Below, piece by piece: positions 25,129-30,772 of a stretch of DNA of 64,000 nt. Position numbers and translations under genes: made by a program. The notes below the pieces were generated by a model. It was not told where the DNA came from and ran no database searches. It saw only the letters and a program-made list of their open reading frames with translations. This DNA comes from Chryseobacterium binzhouense (GTDB lineage: Bacteria; Bacteroidota; Bacteroidia; Flavobacteriales; Weeksellaceae): contig NZ_VKOG01000004.1 of assembly GCF_007474545.1 (NCBI RefSeq), forward strand, positions 248,001 to 312,000. Reading direction: 5' to 3'. Positions within the stretch are counted from its first letter, which is position 1; every line of letters starts with the position of its first letter.

Positions 25129-26010
25129 ATGAATTTGTACACACAACCTATGCTGCGTGAAGGCGCATTACAAGATAAAGTTGCCATTGTTACAGGAGGC
25201 GGAAGCGGACTTGGCAAAGCAATGACCAAATACTTTCTTGAACTGGGCGCAAAAGTAGTTATCACATCCAGAAATCTGGAAAAATTACAAATTACCGCCA
25301 AAGAGCTTGAAGAACAAACCGGAGGAAGAGTACTTTGCGTAGCATGCGATGTACGAAACTGGGATGAAGTAGAAGCCATGAAAGAGGCTGCTTTAAAGGA
25401 ATTCGGAAAAATTGACATTCTTCTGAATAATGCTGCCGGAAATTTTATTTCACCAACAGAAAGATTAACGCATTCTGCCTTTGATTCTATTTTGGATATT
25501 GTATTGAAAGGAACCAAAAACTGTACGCTTTCCATTGGAAAACATTGGATTGATTCTAAAACTCCAGGAACAGTATTGAATATTGTCACAACTTACGCTT
25601 GGACGGGTTCAGCATACGTTGTTCCGTCTGCTTGTGCAAAAGCCGGAGTTTTGGCAATGACAAGATCTTTAGCTGTTGAATGGGCAAAATACGGAATCCG
25701 TTTCAATGCTATTGCGCCCGGTCCTTTTCCTACAAAAGGAGCATGGGACCGACTGCTTCCGGGAGATTTGCAGGAGAAATTTGATATGAGAAAAAAAGTG
25801 CCGCTGAGAAGAGTCGGTGAACATCAGGAACTGGCAAATCTTGCCGCTTATCTGGTTTCTGACTATTCTGCTTATATGAATGGCGAAGTAGTAACCATTG
25901 ACGGTGGAGAATGGCTTCAGGGTGCAGGAGAATTTAACATGCTGGAAGATATTCCGCAGGAAATGTGGGATGCGCTGGAAGCAATGATTAAAGCAAAAAA
26001 ATCGAATTAA
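25129..26010 (+). CDS. 2,4-dienoyl-CoA reductase-like SDR
   Basis: The 293-residue protein has the cofactor loop VTGGGSGLGKAM, NNAAGNFISPTERL and the C-terminal GEVVTIDGGEWL. At the usual SDR YxxxK position it reads VVPSACAKAG, with Ser in place of Tyr; this VPSAxAKAG form is the hallmark of the 2,4-dienoyl-CoA reductase branch, not a defect. Such enzymes reduce dienoyl-CoA in the breakdown of unsaturated fatty acids with NADPH. Single gene with a terminator downstream; no beta-oxidation partner lies nearby. Confidence 0.88.
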   Translation: MNLYTQPMLREGALQDKVAIVTGGGSGLGKAMTKYFLELGAKVVITSRNLEKLQITAKELEEQTGGRVLCVACDVRNWDEVEAMKEAALKEFGKIDILLNNAAGNFISPTERLTHSAFDSILDIVLKGTKNCTLSIGKHWIDSKTPGTVLNIVTTYAWTGSAYVVPSACAKAGVLAMTRSLAVEWAKYGIRFNAIAPGPFPTKGAWDRLLPGDLQEKFDMRKKVPLRRVGEHQELANLAAYLVSDYSAYMNGEVVTIDGGEWLQGAGEFNMLEDIPQEMWDALEAMIKAKKSN

Positions 26011-26039
26011 CTATAATTTCTAACTTTATTAATACCATT

Positions 26040-26069
26040 AAACTCTTTTAAAAATTTTTAAAAGAGTTT
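26040..26069 (+). terminator. Terminator between the SDR and the DUF2589 operon
   Basis: AAACTCTTTTA and TAAAAGAGTTT pair perfectly over 11 bp with an 8-base loop and are followed by TTTTA, separating the SDR from the operon that follows. Confidence 0.82.
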
Positions 26070-26174
26070 TTTATTAGTTACCACTAACATTTACTTAACA
26101 ATACATTTTCCGTTAGGGAAAAACACCCTTTCAATTTCGGTGATTTACCTGCAATGTTTTCTTTTTTAGCGAGA

Positions 26175-26182
26175 TACATTTG
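26175..26182 (+). promoter_or_regulatory. -7 promoter element for the DUF2589/subtilase operon
   Basis: TACATTTG fits TAnnTTTG; expected start of transcription near 26189 gives a leader of about 29 bases before the ATG at 26218. Confidence 0.65.
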
Positions 26183-26217
26183 TACTACAAATTAGTATTA
26201 ACCAAAACAAAATCAAA

Positions 26218-27105
26218 ATGGAAACATTGAAATCGGTGCTGGAAGCCAATCACACCAAAAAATCAAAAAACGAATTAATTGAACTTTTATCCGGAGTACA
26301 GCAAATAATTTCTCCGAATGTGTATGATAAAATTTCAGGAGTGGAAATCTCTGAACTGAAAGATCTTTCAACAAAAGAAATTCTTTCGATCATTGATCAG
26401 TTCAAATCTGCTTATGACGAAAAATGGGAAAAATCTTTAGCCAGCGCATCATCACAAGTCTTAAAAATGATTTCTATGAGAATGGCTGCAGATGATGAAA
26501 TTTTCAGAACTTCTGATGCCTCCAATGCAGATTTTGCTGCCGAACTGGGGAGTATAGACTTTGCTACCGTAATCGGAGGTCCGCTTGATGCTTGTGTGAA
26601 AGCACAATCCAATGCTTCAGTTTCTACAGTAAGTTTTATTAATGAGGTTGGTTTTGAAGCTACTGATCCCAACAATCCCAATAGTCCTAAGAAACTGAGA
26701 ATGGCAGATTTTAAATACAAAAAAAATGTGCCTAACCCTGATTTTGATGACACAAAACCTGAAAGCAATTCTAATCCAAAAACAATTCAGCAGGATGTTG
26801 AACTTTCGGTTCCGTTTATTGCGTTACTGAATGTTCCGTGCTTCAGAATAGAATCCTGTGAAGTAGATTTTAATGTGAAGCTCAATTCTACATACACCAA
26901 AGATGTAAGCAGCAATTTTGGGATTGATGCAGGTGCTTCGGGAGGATGGGGTCCGGTAAAATTCAGTGTAAATGTTTCTTACAAACGTTCTTCAAGCACA
27001 GGAATTAAAGTGGAAAAAGAATATTCTTTAGGAGTAAAAGTACGGGCAACCAACGATGAAATGCCTGCAGGACTGGAAAAAGTTTTAGGTTTGCTCGCTC
27101 AGTAA
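26218..27105 (+). CDS. DUF2589 protein with N-terminal helical extension
   Basis: The 295-residue protein has a helical N-terminal part (about 1-95) and a DUF2589 core from about 107: LGSIDFATVIGGPLDACVKA, TVSFINEVGFE, VELSVPFIALLNVPCFRIES and the C-terminal NDEMPAGLEKVLGLL. Residues 145-190 are a Pro/Asn-rich insertion. No signal peptide or membrane helix. DUF2589 proteins have no established function; the amphipathic strands suggest assembly with themselves or with the next gene product. It heads a five-gene operon with a subtilase. The helical extension appears additional to the core family. Confidence 0.82.
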   Translation: METLKSVLEANHTKKSKNELIELLSGVQQIISPNVYDKISGVEISELKDLSTKEILSIIDQFKSAYDEKWEKSLASASSQVLKMISMRMAADDEIFRTSDASNADFAAELGSIDFATVIGGPLDACVKAQSNASVSTVSFINEVGFEATDPNNPNSPKKLRMADFKYKKNVPNPDFDDTKPESNSNPKTIQQDVELSVPFIALLNVPCFRIESCEVDFNVKLNSTYTKDVSSNFGIDAGASGGWGPVKFSVNVSYKRSSSTGIKVEKEYSLGVKVRATNDEMPAGLEKVLGLLAQ

Positions 27106-27123
27106 ATTTTAAATTTTACGACT

Positions 27124-27822
27124 ATGATAAAATTATCAGATTACCTGGATTATCTCAACAATGAGATAATTCAGGCTCGTAAAAGAGCAGACGAAAACGC
27201 TATTGCCATCGCAAAAGAATACGCCAAACATGAATATCTGAAATATTTTACAGCTCCGAGATATGCTTTACCCAGCGTAAAAATGGAAATCCCTCTAAAA
27301 ATTACTGATATTGATGCAGATGAAAAGTATAATTTTAAAATAAATGAAGATCAGCTGATTGGTGAAGTAAATGAAAGAATCCGTCTCGTCAACAGAGAAA
27401 AAAGGCTTAATATCACAGAAATTTCTAAAAAGCAGATTCAGACTGAAGACTTTAAATCAATATTTAAAAAACTGGAGTCTACCGATCAGAAGTTTGGAAA
27501 GCTTCCCACAACAGAGGTGGTGAAATTAGATTTAAAATCACAGATAAAAACTTTAAATACTGGAATTTTCCGGCCACAGGACGGAAGTTCAGATACAGAA
27601 GTCAACGAGCTAAAGGAAATCTTCTCTAGTGTGTTACTGAATAAATATAAGCTTGTGAACTCCAAACTGAATAATATCTATATTGATCCCAACACAACAT
27701 CCGCAGAAGATAAAGACAAATTATTTATAAATCTTCAGGTTTCGATGGAAGCGGAAGGAATCCGCATCGTGTCTTACAAAGATAAAGACGGTAAAGAAGT
27801 AGAACAAATAACATTTGAGTAA
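27124..27822 (+). CDS. Unknown protein, companion of DUF2589
   Basis: The 232-residue protein begins with a helical segment (LSDYLDYLNNEIIQARKRAD, then EYAKHEYLKYF) followed by APRYALPSVKMEIPLKITDI, a strand rich in alternating hydrophobics. The end, LFINLQVSMEAEGIRIVSY, is also strand-like, resembling the layout of the DUF2589 core. The middle (about 90-190) is charged and helical. No signal peptide. It starts 18 bases after the DUF2589 gene and overlaps the next gene by one base. I know no function; its position suggests it forms a complex with the DUF2589 protein. Confidence 0.7.
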   Translation: MIKLSDYLDYLNNEIIQARKRADENAIAIAKEYAKHEYLKYFTAPRYALPSVKMEIPLKITDIDADEKYNFKINEDQLIGEVNERIRLVNREKRLNITEISKKQIQTEDFKSIFKKLESTDQKFGKLPTTEVVKLDLKSQIKTLNTGIFRPQDGSSDTEVNELKEIFSSVLLNKYKLVNSKLNNIYIDPNTTSAEDKDKLFINLQVSMEAEGIRIVSYKDKDGKEVEQITFE

Positions 27823-28400
27823 TGCAGGAACTGATTCATCATACAACGCAGACTTTGGAGTTTCATCTGGATCAACTTAATAAAATTCAGGAAGTATATC
27901 TTGCGAAATCCTTTGATTTTGACAGCCAGTTTGATACTTTTCTTCATCAATTGCTTGATTATTTTAAAGCCAAAGGAAATACGACTCGCGAATCTGAAGT
28001 TCTGAAAATAATGAGCATGATTGAAACAGTAAAACGTGGCTTTAATCCAGTGAAACTTGAAAATATCAGCTCCGGAAAACGAAATTTGTTGTACGGTTTT
28101 TCTTTTAACGGAATTGAAATGATTCACGGGTTTCTTACTGAGCTGCTCGCAAAAGAACAGAAAAAACTTGATGAATCGGAAGAATTACTTTCAGGCTTGA
28201 TGATTTCTCTTTATCAAAACAATATTCTGGATGATGCTACAATTAAAGAGCTGAATTCTGTTATAAAAATAGGTCAGTTTTGGGAACAGCTGCTTTTACA
28301 GAATACATCTATTGCAGGAATCAACAAAAAACTGAGACTGAGCCTTTTATCAGAAGACATTTATCTCATTATTGAAAAAATACTAACCAAGATCACATAA
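27822..28400 (+). CDS. Unknown helical protein
   Basis: The 192-residue protein is predicted by eye to be all-helical (ELIHHTTQTLEFHLDQLNKIQ, LDESEELLSGLMISLYQNNI) with no signal peptide, membrane helix or catalytic motif. The stop of the preceding gene and this start share one base (TAATG), so they are translationally coupled. A scaffolding or adaptor role in the operon is only a guess from position. Confidence 0.68.
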   Translation: MQELIHHTTQTLEFHLDQLNKIQEVYLAKSFDFDSQFDTFLHQLLDYFKAKGNTTRESEVLKIMSMIETVKRGFNPVKLENISSGKRNLLYGFSFNGIEMIHGFLTELLAKEQKKLDESEELLSGLMISLYQNNILDDATIKELNSVIKIGQFWEQLLLQNTSIAGINKKLRLSLLSEDIYLIIEKILTKIT

Positions 28401-28413
28401 ACATACATCAGCC

Positions 28414-29670
28414 ATGGAAAACGAAAGATACATCGTCCTTTTGAAGGATCAGGCGAAAAGTTCCATCAAAAAAGTGGAAAAAGAACTGGAAGTAAGCATT
28501 ACCTCATCAGAGTTTCTGTCGAAAGACAACCGCTCTTATGAAGTGATTGATGAGGACAACGGAGTTTTATACAAAAATCTCGGAGTAATGGTAGTAGAAA
28601 ATATGGATGAAGACCAGCTGAAAAAAGCCGTGAAAAACGAATCTAATCCTATCATGTACTTTGAGAAAGAAAGAGATTTTTTTCAGGCAGATGAAATGAA
28701 AATTATTGCCGAACTCAAGAAAAAATCGGCTGAGCTTTCCGATAAAATCAGTGAACTGGAAAACTTCATCAACAACAAACCGATTCCTCCAAAAAACTTA
28801 ATTGAACTGGAATGGGGACTTAAAGCAATTGGAATTGACAGAACATCATTTACCGGAAAAGGAATTGATATCTGCATTCTGGATACCGGACTTGAAATGA
28901 CCCATCCTGACTTTTCAGCAAGAACCGTTGAAGGAAAATCTTTCATTGAAGGCGAAGACTGGAATTCTGATCCGAATGGTCACGGAACTCACTGCGCAGG
29001 AATTGCTGCCGGAAATTTACGCTCTGATACCGGAAAACGCTACGGGATCGCAAAAGACTGTAATCTGAAAGTTGCCAAAGTACTTTCAAATCAGGGAAAA
29101 GGAACAACAAGCAGCGTGATTGATGCCATCGACTGGGCTATTACAAAAAAATTCAGAATACTTTCACTTTCACTTGCTGCTCCGGTCGGCATCAACGAAA
29201 AACCGTCCGTACTTTTTGAAACAGTAGGAAACAGAGCTTTGGAAAACAACTGTCTCATCATTGCGGCAGCGGGAAATGACAGCAGCAGACCTTCTCTTCC
29301 AAAACCGGTTTCTGCACCGGCAAATTCGCCTTCTATTATGGCAGTTGCAGCGATTGACGGACAAATGAAAATTGCAAGGTTTTCAAATGCGGGCATCAAT
29401 CCTTTGGAAGGCGGAAACATTGATGTCTGCGCTCCAGGAGTGGATATTTTCAGCAGTTACTCCAAAAATATTAAAAATAAAAACTATTATGCGCCGTTAA
29501 GCGGAACCAGCATGGCAACACCTCATGTTTCAGGTCTTGCAGCCCTACTGATGGAACAGTTTCCGGAAAAAACAGCGAAAGAGATATGGAAACTGATTGA
29601 AACTCAGGCAAAACCTATTGAAGGATTGAAATACAGGGATATAGGAAGCGGTTTAATCCAAATCATCTAA
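28414..29670 (+). CDS. S8 subtilisin-like serine protease without signal peptide
   Basis: The 418-residue protease has all catalytic residues: Asp157 (ICILDTGLEMTHPD), His190 (NGHGTHCAG), oxyanion Asn288 (AAAGNDS) and Ser366 (SGTSMATPHVSG). Residues 1-90 look like an I9-type prodomain (RYIVLLKD strand, helix, GVMVVENMD strand, helix, IMYFEKERDFF strand), followed by a coiled-coil linker at about 93-121. There is no signal peptide or C-terminal sorting domain, so it should act in the cytosol. It begins 13 bases after the helical protein and ends 2 bases before a tiny ORF. Intracellular subtilases are rare in Bacteroidota; the substrate is unknown. Confidence 0.93.
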   Translation: MENERYIVLLKDQAKSSIKKVEKELEVSITSSEFLSKDNRSYEVIDEDNGVLYKNLGVMVVENMDEDQLKKAVKNESNPIMYFEKERDFFQADEMKIIAELKKKSAELSDKISELENFINNKPIPPKNLIELEWGLKAIGIDRTSFTGKGIDICILDTGLEMTHPDFSARTVEGKSFIEGEDWNSDPNGHGTHCAGIAAGNLRSDTGKRYGIAKDCNLKVAKVLSNQGKGTTSSVIDAIDWAITKKFRILSLSLAAPVGINEKPSVLFETVGNRALENNCLIIAAAGNDSSRPSLPKPVSAPANSPSIMAVAAIDGQMKIARFSNAGINPLEGGNIDVCAPGVDIFSSYSKNIKNKNYYAPLSGTSMATPHVSGLAALLMEQFPEKTAKEIWKLIETQAKPIEGLKYRDIGSGLIQII

Positions 29671-29672
29671 GC

Positions 29673-29876
29673 ATGAAAACTTATCTCGCCGTTTTGAAAA
29701 GCGATGTTGACTCCGAAGAATTCAGGGAATTTTTAAATCTTAAAAAAATAAAAATTCTTGATTACTATAAAGTCCTGCAAGTGTTTAAAATACAAAGTGA
29801 TAAAAAACTAAATCCAAAAGATTTCAAAAAATTCTGTATAAGTATTGAAGAAGATCGGAATGATTTAACCATTTAA
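29673..29876 (+). CDS. 67-residue protein resembling a free-standing subtilase prodomain
   Basis: The product starts KTYLAVLKSDVDSEEFREFL and continues KVLQVFKIQSDKKLNPKDFK before CISIEEDRNDLTI. This strand-helix-strand-helix-strand order parallels the prodomain of the adjacent protease (RYIVLLKD / helix / VMVVENMD / DQLKKAVKN / IMYFEKERDF). I9-like proteins of this size are known to act as inhibitors or folding helpers of subtilases, so a trans-acting inhibitor is the best guess. It starts 2 bases after the protease stop and is the last gene before a strong terminator, so co-expression is certain. Sequence identity to the prodomain is low; this is inference from layout. Confidence 0.7.
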   Translation: MKTYLAVLKSDVDSEEFREFLNLKKIKILDYYKVLQVFKIQSDKKLNPKDFKKFCISIEEDRNDLTI

Positions 29877-29886
29877 TTACATCAAA

Positions 29887-29913
29887 AAAGTTTCTCTCTC
29901 GTTGAGAAACTTT
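29887..29913 (+). terminator. Terminator of the DUF2589/subtilase operon
   Basis: AAAGTTTCTC and GAGAAACTTT make a perfect 10-bp stem with a 7-base loop followed by ATTTTTG. The T-run overlaps the -7 element of the next gene. Confidence 0.85.
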
Positions 29914-29920
29914 ATTTTTG
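29913..29920 (+). promoter_or_regulatory. -7 promoter element overlapping a terminator tail
   Basis: TATTTTTG fits TAnnTTTG and lies 25 bases before the ATG at 29945, immediately after the terminator stem of the upstream operon. Confidence 0.5.
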
Positions 29921-29944
29921 TTTAAATTTAATACAACACCAAAA

Positions 29945-30772
29945 ATGAATTTCAGGTTAACTACTCTACTTCTGCTATTTTTTTCATTTATGTTTTCGCA
30001 AAATTTAAAAGTCATGTCATTTAATATCCGGCTGAATCTTGATTCTGATAAAGAAAATTCCTGGACTAACAGAAAACAGGATGCCATTGATCTGCTGAAT
30101 TATTATCAGCCAGATTATTTTGGCGTACAGGAAGCTCTTCCGGAACAAATGAAAGACATTAAAAACGGAATGCAAAACTACGAATACGTAGGCGTAGGAA
30201 GAGATGACGGAAAAGAAAAAGGTGAGTTTTCTGCCTTGTTTTATGATAAGGAGAAACTTCAGGTTTTAAAATCCGGAACTTTCTGGCTTTCTGAAACACC
30301 GGAGAAACCGTCTAAAGGATGGGATGCTGCTTACAACAGAATTTGCACCTATGCTTTTTTTAAAGATAAAAAATCGAAAAAAGAATTTTTAGCAATGAAT
30401 ATTCATTTTGACCATGTAGGAAATGTGGCGAGAGTGAAGTCTGCGGATCTGATTCTGAAAAAAGCAAAAGAAATGAATCCTAAAAATCTTCCAGTCATTC
30501 TGAGCGGGGATTTTAATTTAACTGAAGAAACTGAGCCTGTACAAATACTTTCAAGAAATTTAGACGATACTTTTTATAAATCAGAAACTAAACATTATGG
30601 TCCTGTAGGAACTTTTACCGGATTCAATATCAATGAAATTCCCCAAAACAGAATTGATTATATTTTTGTAAAAGGCTTTACAATAAAATCTCACAGGCAC
30701 ATTAATGACCGAAGAGAAAATCTTCTGTATCCTTCTGATCATTTTCCTGTTTTGGTTGATCTGCAGTTTTAA
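29945..30772 (+). CDS. Secreted endonuclease/exonuclease/phosphatase-fold protein
   Basis: From the ATG at 29945 the protein has 275 residues and a signal peptide (NFRLTTLLLLFFSFMFSQ). The frame opens at 29918, but that would put the start before the likely transcript start. The EEP fold is seen in LKVMSFNIRLN, PDYFGVQEALPEQM (metal Glu), MNIHFDHVG, ILSGDFNLTEE (Asp/Asn) and LYPSDHFPVLVDL (catalytic Asp-His). Such exported enzymes cleave phosphodiester or phosphate ester bonds in sugars, lipids or nucleic acid; the substrate is open. Confidence 0.9.
   Translation: MNFRLTTLLLLFFSFMFSQNLKVMSFNIRLNLDSDKENSWTNRKQDAIDLLNYYQPDYFGVQEALPEQMKDIKNGMQNYEYVGVGRDDGKEKGEFSALFYDKEKLQVLKSGTFWLSETPEKPSKGWDAAYNRICTYAFFKDKKSKKEFLAMNIHFDHVGNVARVKSADLILKKAKEMNPKNLPVILSGDFNLTEETEPVQILSRNLDDTFYKSETKHYGPVGTFTGFNINEIPQNRIDYIFVKGFTIKSHRHINDRRENLLYPSDHFPVLVDLQF

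Follow-up and report, generated by a model that had tools for sequence, protein, structure and literature searches.

A conserved five-gene unit of Chryseobacterium joins a DUF2589 protein to a leaderless subtilase: a tentative case for protease gating

Introduction

Why would a bacterium encode a DUF2589 protein, a member of a family of unknown function, in one operon with a subtilase that appears to stay inside the cell, and what do the three other proteins encoded alongside contribute? The question is raised by five open reading frames (ORFs) of Chryseobacterium binzhouense, here called A, B, C, S8, and E67, which occupy positions 26218-29876 of the plus strand in a window of 64,000 nucleotides (contig NZ_VKOG01000004.1, positions 248,001 to 312,000). 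The initial annotation had taken them for a self-contained intracellular protease module, in which the protease is held by its own prodomain and by a separate inhibitor. Here, we compare the locus with its relatives (loci and genomes are cited by our L and G labels), find that the five genes are one conserved unit, and weigh what such a unit might do.

Results

Five genes form one conserved, selected unit

The five ORFs are intact and separated by 18, -1, 13, and 2 nucleotides, as initially annotated and confirmed by re-reading the sequence. In the family sample of 148 Weeksellaceae genomes, 15 carry C (14 fetched loci and the window), E67 is present in exactly the same 15 genomes, and the order A-B-C-S8-E67 is kept in every one of them. 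The order recurs outside the family, in Bacteroidales, Flavobacteriaceae, and Saprospiraceae. A wider sample of 81 loci, drawn from the best 80 of 330 A relatives in named genomes plus one viral contig, contains 50 loci with an S8 ORF longer than 300 residues, and 47 of these 50 show the exact five-gene order. E67 is present on reading in two of the remaining three (L128 and L148); L157 has a divergent, B-like ORF of 186 residues and a 65-residue ORF where E67 would be. Separately, in L142, a short contig, the sequence runs into the S8 gene. Records with the unit are titled Chryseobacterium, Kaistella, Amniculibacterium, Petrimonas, Paludibacter, Tenacibaculum, Leeuwenhoekiella, Lewinella, Saprospiraceae, and Bacteroidales, the closest named A orthologue among the best 80 of 330 being that of Chryseobacterium echinoideorum (93% identity). 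Given the constancy of gene order and the identical genome distribution of C and E67, the five genes are not accidental neighbors, and the corresponding claim of the initial annotation survived the adjacency check to which it was put.

The proteins have also diverged together. Distances computed for A, B, C, and S8 over 26 loci are correlated (Spearman coefficients of 0.90-0.94), and those of E67, the most divergent of the five (median distance 0.70), follow the other four at 0.77-0.81. The ratio of nonsynonymous to synonymous substitution rates (dN/dS) against three relatives is 0.03-0.12 wherever computable, with the caveat that dS often exceeds 1 and is saturated for E67 in two of the three comparisons; all five genes, as well as the N-terminal tail of A taken alone, look to be under purifying selection. 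In 13 of the 14 family loci, the gene immediately preceding A, or the one before that, is an SDR gene like that of the window, a pattern that vertical inheritance with losses would produce. Collectively, these observations identify the five genes as one conserved, selected unit. Four loci have genes broken into several ORFs, reflecting assembly errors or decay: S8 is affected in L127, A in both L136 and L160, and several genes at once in L129.

The proteases cluster with a tailed lineage of A

A matches DUF2589 (PF11655) over residues 118-294 (E 2.4e-25, 90.1 bits against a cut-off of 23), in agreement with the initial assignment. Ahead of the conserved core, which opens with an ELGSIDF block, lies an N-terminal tail, whose length we counted as the residues preceding that block. 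Tails of 106-126 residues occur in 47 A rows, of which 45 are S8-linked and two (L142 and L158) are cut by the contig end, and tails of 63-92 residues in seven further rows (L161, L162, L163, L165, L166, L171, and L181); the other 23 rows have 6-10 residues before the block, except L061 (28, its ORF start lying upstream of the aligned start). Some loci were drawn from two collections, so that the 47 long rows correspond to 42 distinct cores and the 23 short rows to 22.

When a maximum-likelihood tree is built from the core of A without its tail (thinned to 52 rows), the tailed proteins form one clade (95/89), which splits into an S8-linked group (25 rows, 97/94) and a mixed group comprising the seven rows named above (100/97), with trypsin-, papain-, caspase-, and metallopeptidase-linked members; the tree program warns of long branches, including L092 and L181. 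The tailed clade contains all protease-linked members, the absence of a protease beside untailed A resting on neighbors judged by eye (147 ORFs from 52 loci, other than the 20 proteins scanned with Pfam as described below). The tree places the gain of the tail at a single point, which makes the association of tail and protease one event, after which the protease was exchanged. The S8-type tail is conserved (mean 0.67 versus 0.80 for the core, 31 rows), most of all at its start and at the junction, and several tails of the mixed group look low in complexity. The tails of L171, L162, and L163 are rich in lysine, arginine, and alanine and resemble basic DNA-binding tails.

The mixed group shows what the exchange may look like. 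In L162, C is followed by a papain-family C1 protease (1.1e-16) and then by a chagasin-family I42 inhibitor (PF09394, 2.6e-12). In L161, the gene after C encodes a trypsin-like protease (PF00089, 21.1 bits, the cut-off being 20.6), and a 72-residue ORF with no Pfam match comes next. This small ORF is similar to the N-terminal third of its neighbor, with 3, 8, and 13 of 1000 shuffles scoring as high under three scoring schemes, compared with 262-597 of 1000 for the other two thirds, which is suggestive only, at one locus, of kinship with an N-terminal domain of the protease. L185 likewise has a papain-family C1 protease (2.8e-12) after C, with A only partly present at the contig start. Elsewhere, the enzyme comes first: A follows an amidase and a caspase-domain protein (6.8e-29) in L181, whose contig ends shortly after A, and in L171 the protein ahead of A, 633 residues long, is a predicted metallopeptidase, which combines an HExxH motif with ricin-type repeats and matches reprolysin below threshold (0.068).

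The subtilase and the 67-residue protein

The residues assigned by motif to the catalytic triad, D157, H190, and S366, are invariant in all 15 orthologues examined, and the triad is by this assignment intact. No obvious signal peptide was seen by eye at the N-terminus of any of the five products, and the protease appears to stay inside the cell; on both points, as on the S8 domain itself, the initial annotation holds. It fares differently on the prodomains. For the N-terminal region of S8 and for E67, both of which had been given an I9-like identity, none of 15 orthologues each gives an Inhibitor_I9 match at E values up to 1. E67 gives no significant PDB match, and hhalign finds no significant similarity between it and three I9 domains. 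At the level of sequence, an I9 identity is thus not supported, for the S8 region by Pfam and for E67 by Pfam, PDB, hhalign, and pairwise shuffles, one profile test on E67 being mildly positive (see Discussion).

The originally proposed pairing of a protease with a separate inhibitor gains indirect support from two sister loci. E67 accompanies the protease and occupies the position at which these loci have a small ORF, the chagasin-family inhibitor of L162 and the 72-residue ORF of L161. By its position only, E67 is a plausible mini-prodomain.

A, B, and C are a core that also occurs alone

Seven loci of the same genus encode shorter proteins, A', B', and C', with neither S8 nor E67. Genes for M15-peptidase-like and patatin-like proteins (families assigned via homology to the L186 copies) precede A' at all seven, the spacing between these genes, and between them and A', reaching as much as hundreds of bases. 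Two genomes (G091 and G116) contain both kinds of locus, five-gene and A'B'C', and L094 bridges C and C' by matching both models (3e-8 and 2e-6). A-B-C-like trios occur in other families and classes as well. Thus, A, B, and C are a core, found also without the protease or the 67-residue protein. DUF2589 itself is present in 19 of 296 genomes of the phylum sample and 14 of 395 of the class sample, which overlap, and in 2 of 98 and 1 of 27 genomes of narrower samples.

The core proteins offer few handles on function. No Pfam model matches B, C, or E67 above its cut-off, and A has no significant sequence match among PDB structures and, at the level of sequence, no Pfam gasdermin match. A and B share a weak similarity over one short motif (12.7% probability), and an amphipathic-strand analysis of the A core decides nothing. 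A relation of B to Trypco was rejected after none of 21 members matched, and the candidate identities of C were set aside as single-member matches resembling coiled-coil noise.

Other DUF2589 genes keep different company. L212, L215, and L218 show a second architecture, in which a tandem DUF2589 pair precedes a small ORF with paired cysteines, and another conserved gene comes after that. In L103 (2622-6815), A'B'C' is followed by an ORF of 1398 residues, the start of which, we presume, resembles the SpvB/RHS family. Two Vibrio plasmids (L187 and L190) have DUF2589 genes within about 10 kb of genes annotated as encoding TcdA/TcdB-domain proteins; there were four plasmid records of DUF2589 altogether, and the five-gene operon does not appear in the annotation shown for them. 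In the open-licence literature searched, one paper names DUF2589, in connection with up-regulated Archaeoglobus genes, and none contains PF11655.

Signals around the operon

Of 56 loci, 44 have a TAnnTTTG motif in the 160 nucleotides ahead of A (Table 1), where base shuffles would give 6.5; in 39 loci it starts 35-52 nucleotides before the A start codon, and 12 lack it. We take it to be a promoter element of the Bacteroidota type. What the initial annotation called the promoter is a conserved, promoter-like element. The strong terminator proposed downstream fares less well: a hairpin with a T-rich tail is indeed there, but such sites are equally common in shuffled sequence (three found, shuffle mean 2.9), which leaves a terminator plausible, not proven. 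No RNA family reached its gathering score across 25900-30100.

Table 1. Features of the operon and its flanks, in window coordinates
Feature	Position	Strand	Basis
TAnnTTTG promoter-like element	26175-26182	+	sequence; kept upstream of A in relatives
Gene A, DUF2589 protein, 295 residues	26218-27105	+	PF11655; orthologues in S8-bearing loci
A N-terminal tail, residues 1-108	26218-26541	+	tail lengths, conservation, purifying selection
A conserved core, begins ELGSIDF	26542-27105	+	alignments
Gene B, 232 residues, no known family	27124-27822	+	Pfam and alignment
Gene C, 192 residues, no known family	27822-28400	+	Pfam and alignment
Gene S8, leaderless subtilase, 418 residues	28414-29670	+	PF00082, 1.2e-52
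S8 conserved N-terminal region, residues 1-89, prodomain position, no Pfam family	28414-28680	+	alignment
S8 catalytic residue D157	28882-28884	+	motif assignment
S8 catalytic residue H190	28981-28983	+	motif assignment
S8 catalytic residue S366	29509-29511	+	motif assignment
Gene E67, 67 residues, proposed protease inhibitor	29673-29876	+	distribution, alignment, median distances
Hairpin with T-rich tail, terminator-like, 10-bp stem	29887-29913	+	sequence scan versus shuffles

Discussion

The reading toward which we lean, tentatively and without calling it probable, is that of a protease-gated module, in which the protease would act on the A tail and thereby switch A-B-C, with E67 restraining the protease. 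We infer that A, B, and C would form an assembly, the ancestral core, which the N-terminal tail of A would keep off or tethered. The co-encoded subtilase would either remove the tail, as a substrate, or dock on it, switching the assembly, presumably the output of the module; E67 would bind the protease and keep it inactive, pending a signal or a shift in stoichiometry.

Several observations weigh against this proposal. As the tail was gained once, a test on independent pairs has a single pair and no power. The trypsin-like, caspase, and metallopeptidase variants are represented by one locus each and the papain variant by two, one of them L185 with its partial A; several of these loci come from metagenome-assembled genomes. 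Furthermore, three tailed loci (L163, L165, and L166) show no adjacent protease. The inhibitory role of E67 faces difficulties of its own: it is without detectable homology to any inhibitor family, and its comparison with the S8 N-terminus is not significant by hhalign and negative in pairwise shuffles over 16 loci. A profile column shuffle of the same pair is positive (score 30.4, 0 of 300 shuffles as high, z of about 4.3), but we do not rely on it, because the N-terminal window of B scores nearly as well in that test (27.5). Between the small ORF of L161 and its protease, BLASTP finds nothing. Finally, the wall hydrolases and phospholipases beside untailed A loci fit a cargo model, discussed next, equally well. 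L163 also has two nearby ORFs on the opposite strand, which we take to encode secreted M16 peptidases.

That cargo model is the main rival, and we consider it rather unlikely, if less so than the other alternatives. It was suggested by the hydrolases beside other DUF2589 loci and holds that A-B-C is a scaffold, carrier, or export device, with the adjacent hydrolases as cargo or effectors, E67 or chagasin protecting the producer's cytosol in the manner of an immunity protein, and the A tail serving as a docking adaptor. A Pfam scan of 20 proteins encoded beside DUF2589 genes detects hydrolase domains in 11 (trypsin-like, papain in two, amidase, caspase, M15 peptidase, patatin, CHAP, muramidase, PI-PLC, and metallophosphoesterase), the remaining nine comprising one inhibitor domain, four other domains, and four proteins with no match; the 20 were, however, picked by eye and without a background control. 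The M15- and patatin-like genes ahead of A' at all seven loci also fit a carrier, although their distances from each other and from A' do not. By eye, there is no same-strand hydrolase neighbor at, for example, the Flavobacterium loci L164, L167, and L168 or the Tenacibaculum loci L172, L173, L177, and L180. The C. binzhouense genome itself encodes a contractile injection system; yet VipB of the type VI secretion system was found in none of the 148 family genomes, and a sheath model that is insensitive here matches 13 of the 148, no more than 5 of them among the 15 with the operon. Dependence on a contractile machine is therefore not supported. The injection system, of the Pvc/Afp type, lies about 190 kb from the window (L247, contig C11, 45-64 kb) and comprises Pvc16_N, CIS_tube, a tape-measure protein, two tail tubes, two sheaths, a spike/hub protein, and baseplate J proteins.

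A role in proteostasis seems improbable. A-B-C would then serve as an adaptor, delivering damaged or regulatory proteins to the subtilase, with E67 as a brake and A not itself a substrate. The stable chromosomal neighborhood within the family and the strong purifying selection would suit such a role. On the other hand, A-B-C is present without the subtilase in many lineages, and the type of protease is exchanged in the sister clade, which would be odd for a dedicated adaptor.

More doubtful still is anti-phage defense, in which infection would free the protease from E67 and so activate a lethal A-B-C. Protease-activated effectors are established in defense (PMC12799240, PMC9079055). The S8 domain matches the subtilase and IetS defense models (at best 6.2e-26 and 4.2e-14), as a generic S8 domain might, but scores only 23.8 bits on the NCBIfam model of an anti-phage S8 peptidase, against a cut-off of 900. 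PADLOC, applied to 102 flanking proteins from 14 loci, gives scattered matches, mostly single-member and at most four per family; strong matches to mad3, PDC-M37B, and DolB (1e-43 to 1e-34) come from single proteins, though these are not mapped to loci. A, B, C, and E67 themselves have no PADLOC match, and the recurrent SDR neighborhood is what vertical inheritance predicts. Searches with A recovered one locus among viral contigs and one phage record, and the S8 alignment recovered none among viral contigs; 62 phage records do match the S8 protein, all at below 60% identity and none covering 80% of it, and we accordingly take them for general subtilases. The stress or defense role raised in the initial annotation thus finds no clear support in the genomic context, and a role in defense is possible but weakly supported. 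As for accidental adjacency of unrelated genes, nothing favors it beyond the lack of a known function, and the exact order in 47 of 50 loci, with E67 on reading in two of the other three, together with the identical set of genomes containing C and E67, lets us dismiss it for practical purposes.

Whichever mechanism holds, the comparison provides DUF2589 with a set of partners, B and C, and with an evolutionary history. If protease gating of A is correct, it would explain why unrelated proteases stand beside the same core, and a family with no detected homology to gasdermins or nucleases would join the bacterial proteins that are controlled by a neighboring protease. A bolder version, which we regard as unlikely, would make DUF2589 systems a new class of protease-gated device, in which the tailed A lineage took up proteases of five catalytic types (subtilase, trypsin-like, papain, caspase, and metallopeptidase) as interchangeable triggers, some with a small brake; given the leaderless wall hydrolases and phospholipases beside some members, A-B-C might then be membrane-active or lytic.

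Comparison with known systems

Printed analogues of the proposed protease-on-tail switch exist in HET-Q2/HET-Q1, in the gasdermin proteases, and in gated nucleases. Bacterial gasdermin (bGSDM) operons combine an effector having an autoinhibitory terminal segment with a co-encoded protease, caspase- or trypsin-like (PMC9079055). The present operon resembles them in having a core protein with a terminal segment and a protease beside it. It departs from them in that A has no Pfam gasdermin match and no significant PDB sequence match, the extra segment is N-terminal, and a separate small protein follows the protease, with B and C as additional partners. In fungi, the subtilase HET-Q2 controls the gasdermin HET-Q1 by removing a terminal fragment (PMC10989679), again an S8-family protease controlling a second protein, as we propose here; as far as sequence tells, the target family differs, and the excerpt describes no counterpart of E67, B, or C.

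In caspase-nuclease (canu), HamMAB, and Avs systems, proteases have repeatedly been recruited to gate a partner protein, namely nucleases (PMC12799240). There, one nuclease-protease pair moves between systems, whereas in the DUF2589 loci the class of protease changes over one core, and no nuclease domain was found in the operon. The ternary VMAP systems, which include trypsin or caspase domains and Trypco1/2 neighbors (PMC7159879), are similar in placing interchangeable peptidases beside small uncharacterized proteins. They differ in that no vWA, MoxR, or VMAP domain is detected by Pfam in the five genes or in three genes flanking them (the wider flanks were not scanned for these), and scans of A (the window protein), B, and C show no Trypco match.

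E67, for its part, has counterparts by description in two other subtilase systems. In Bacillus subtilis, the separate small protein IPI, with an Ig-like fold, is reported to inhibit the subtilase Isp1 (PMC3901451), and a propeptide-like protein of Plasmodium is reported to inhibit SUB1 (PMC6993865). E67, too, is a separate small protein, proposed here to inhibit a subtilase.

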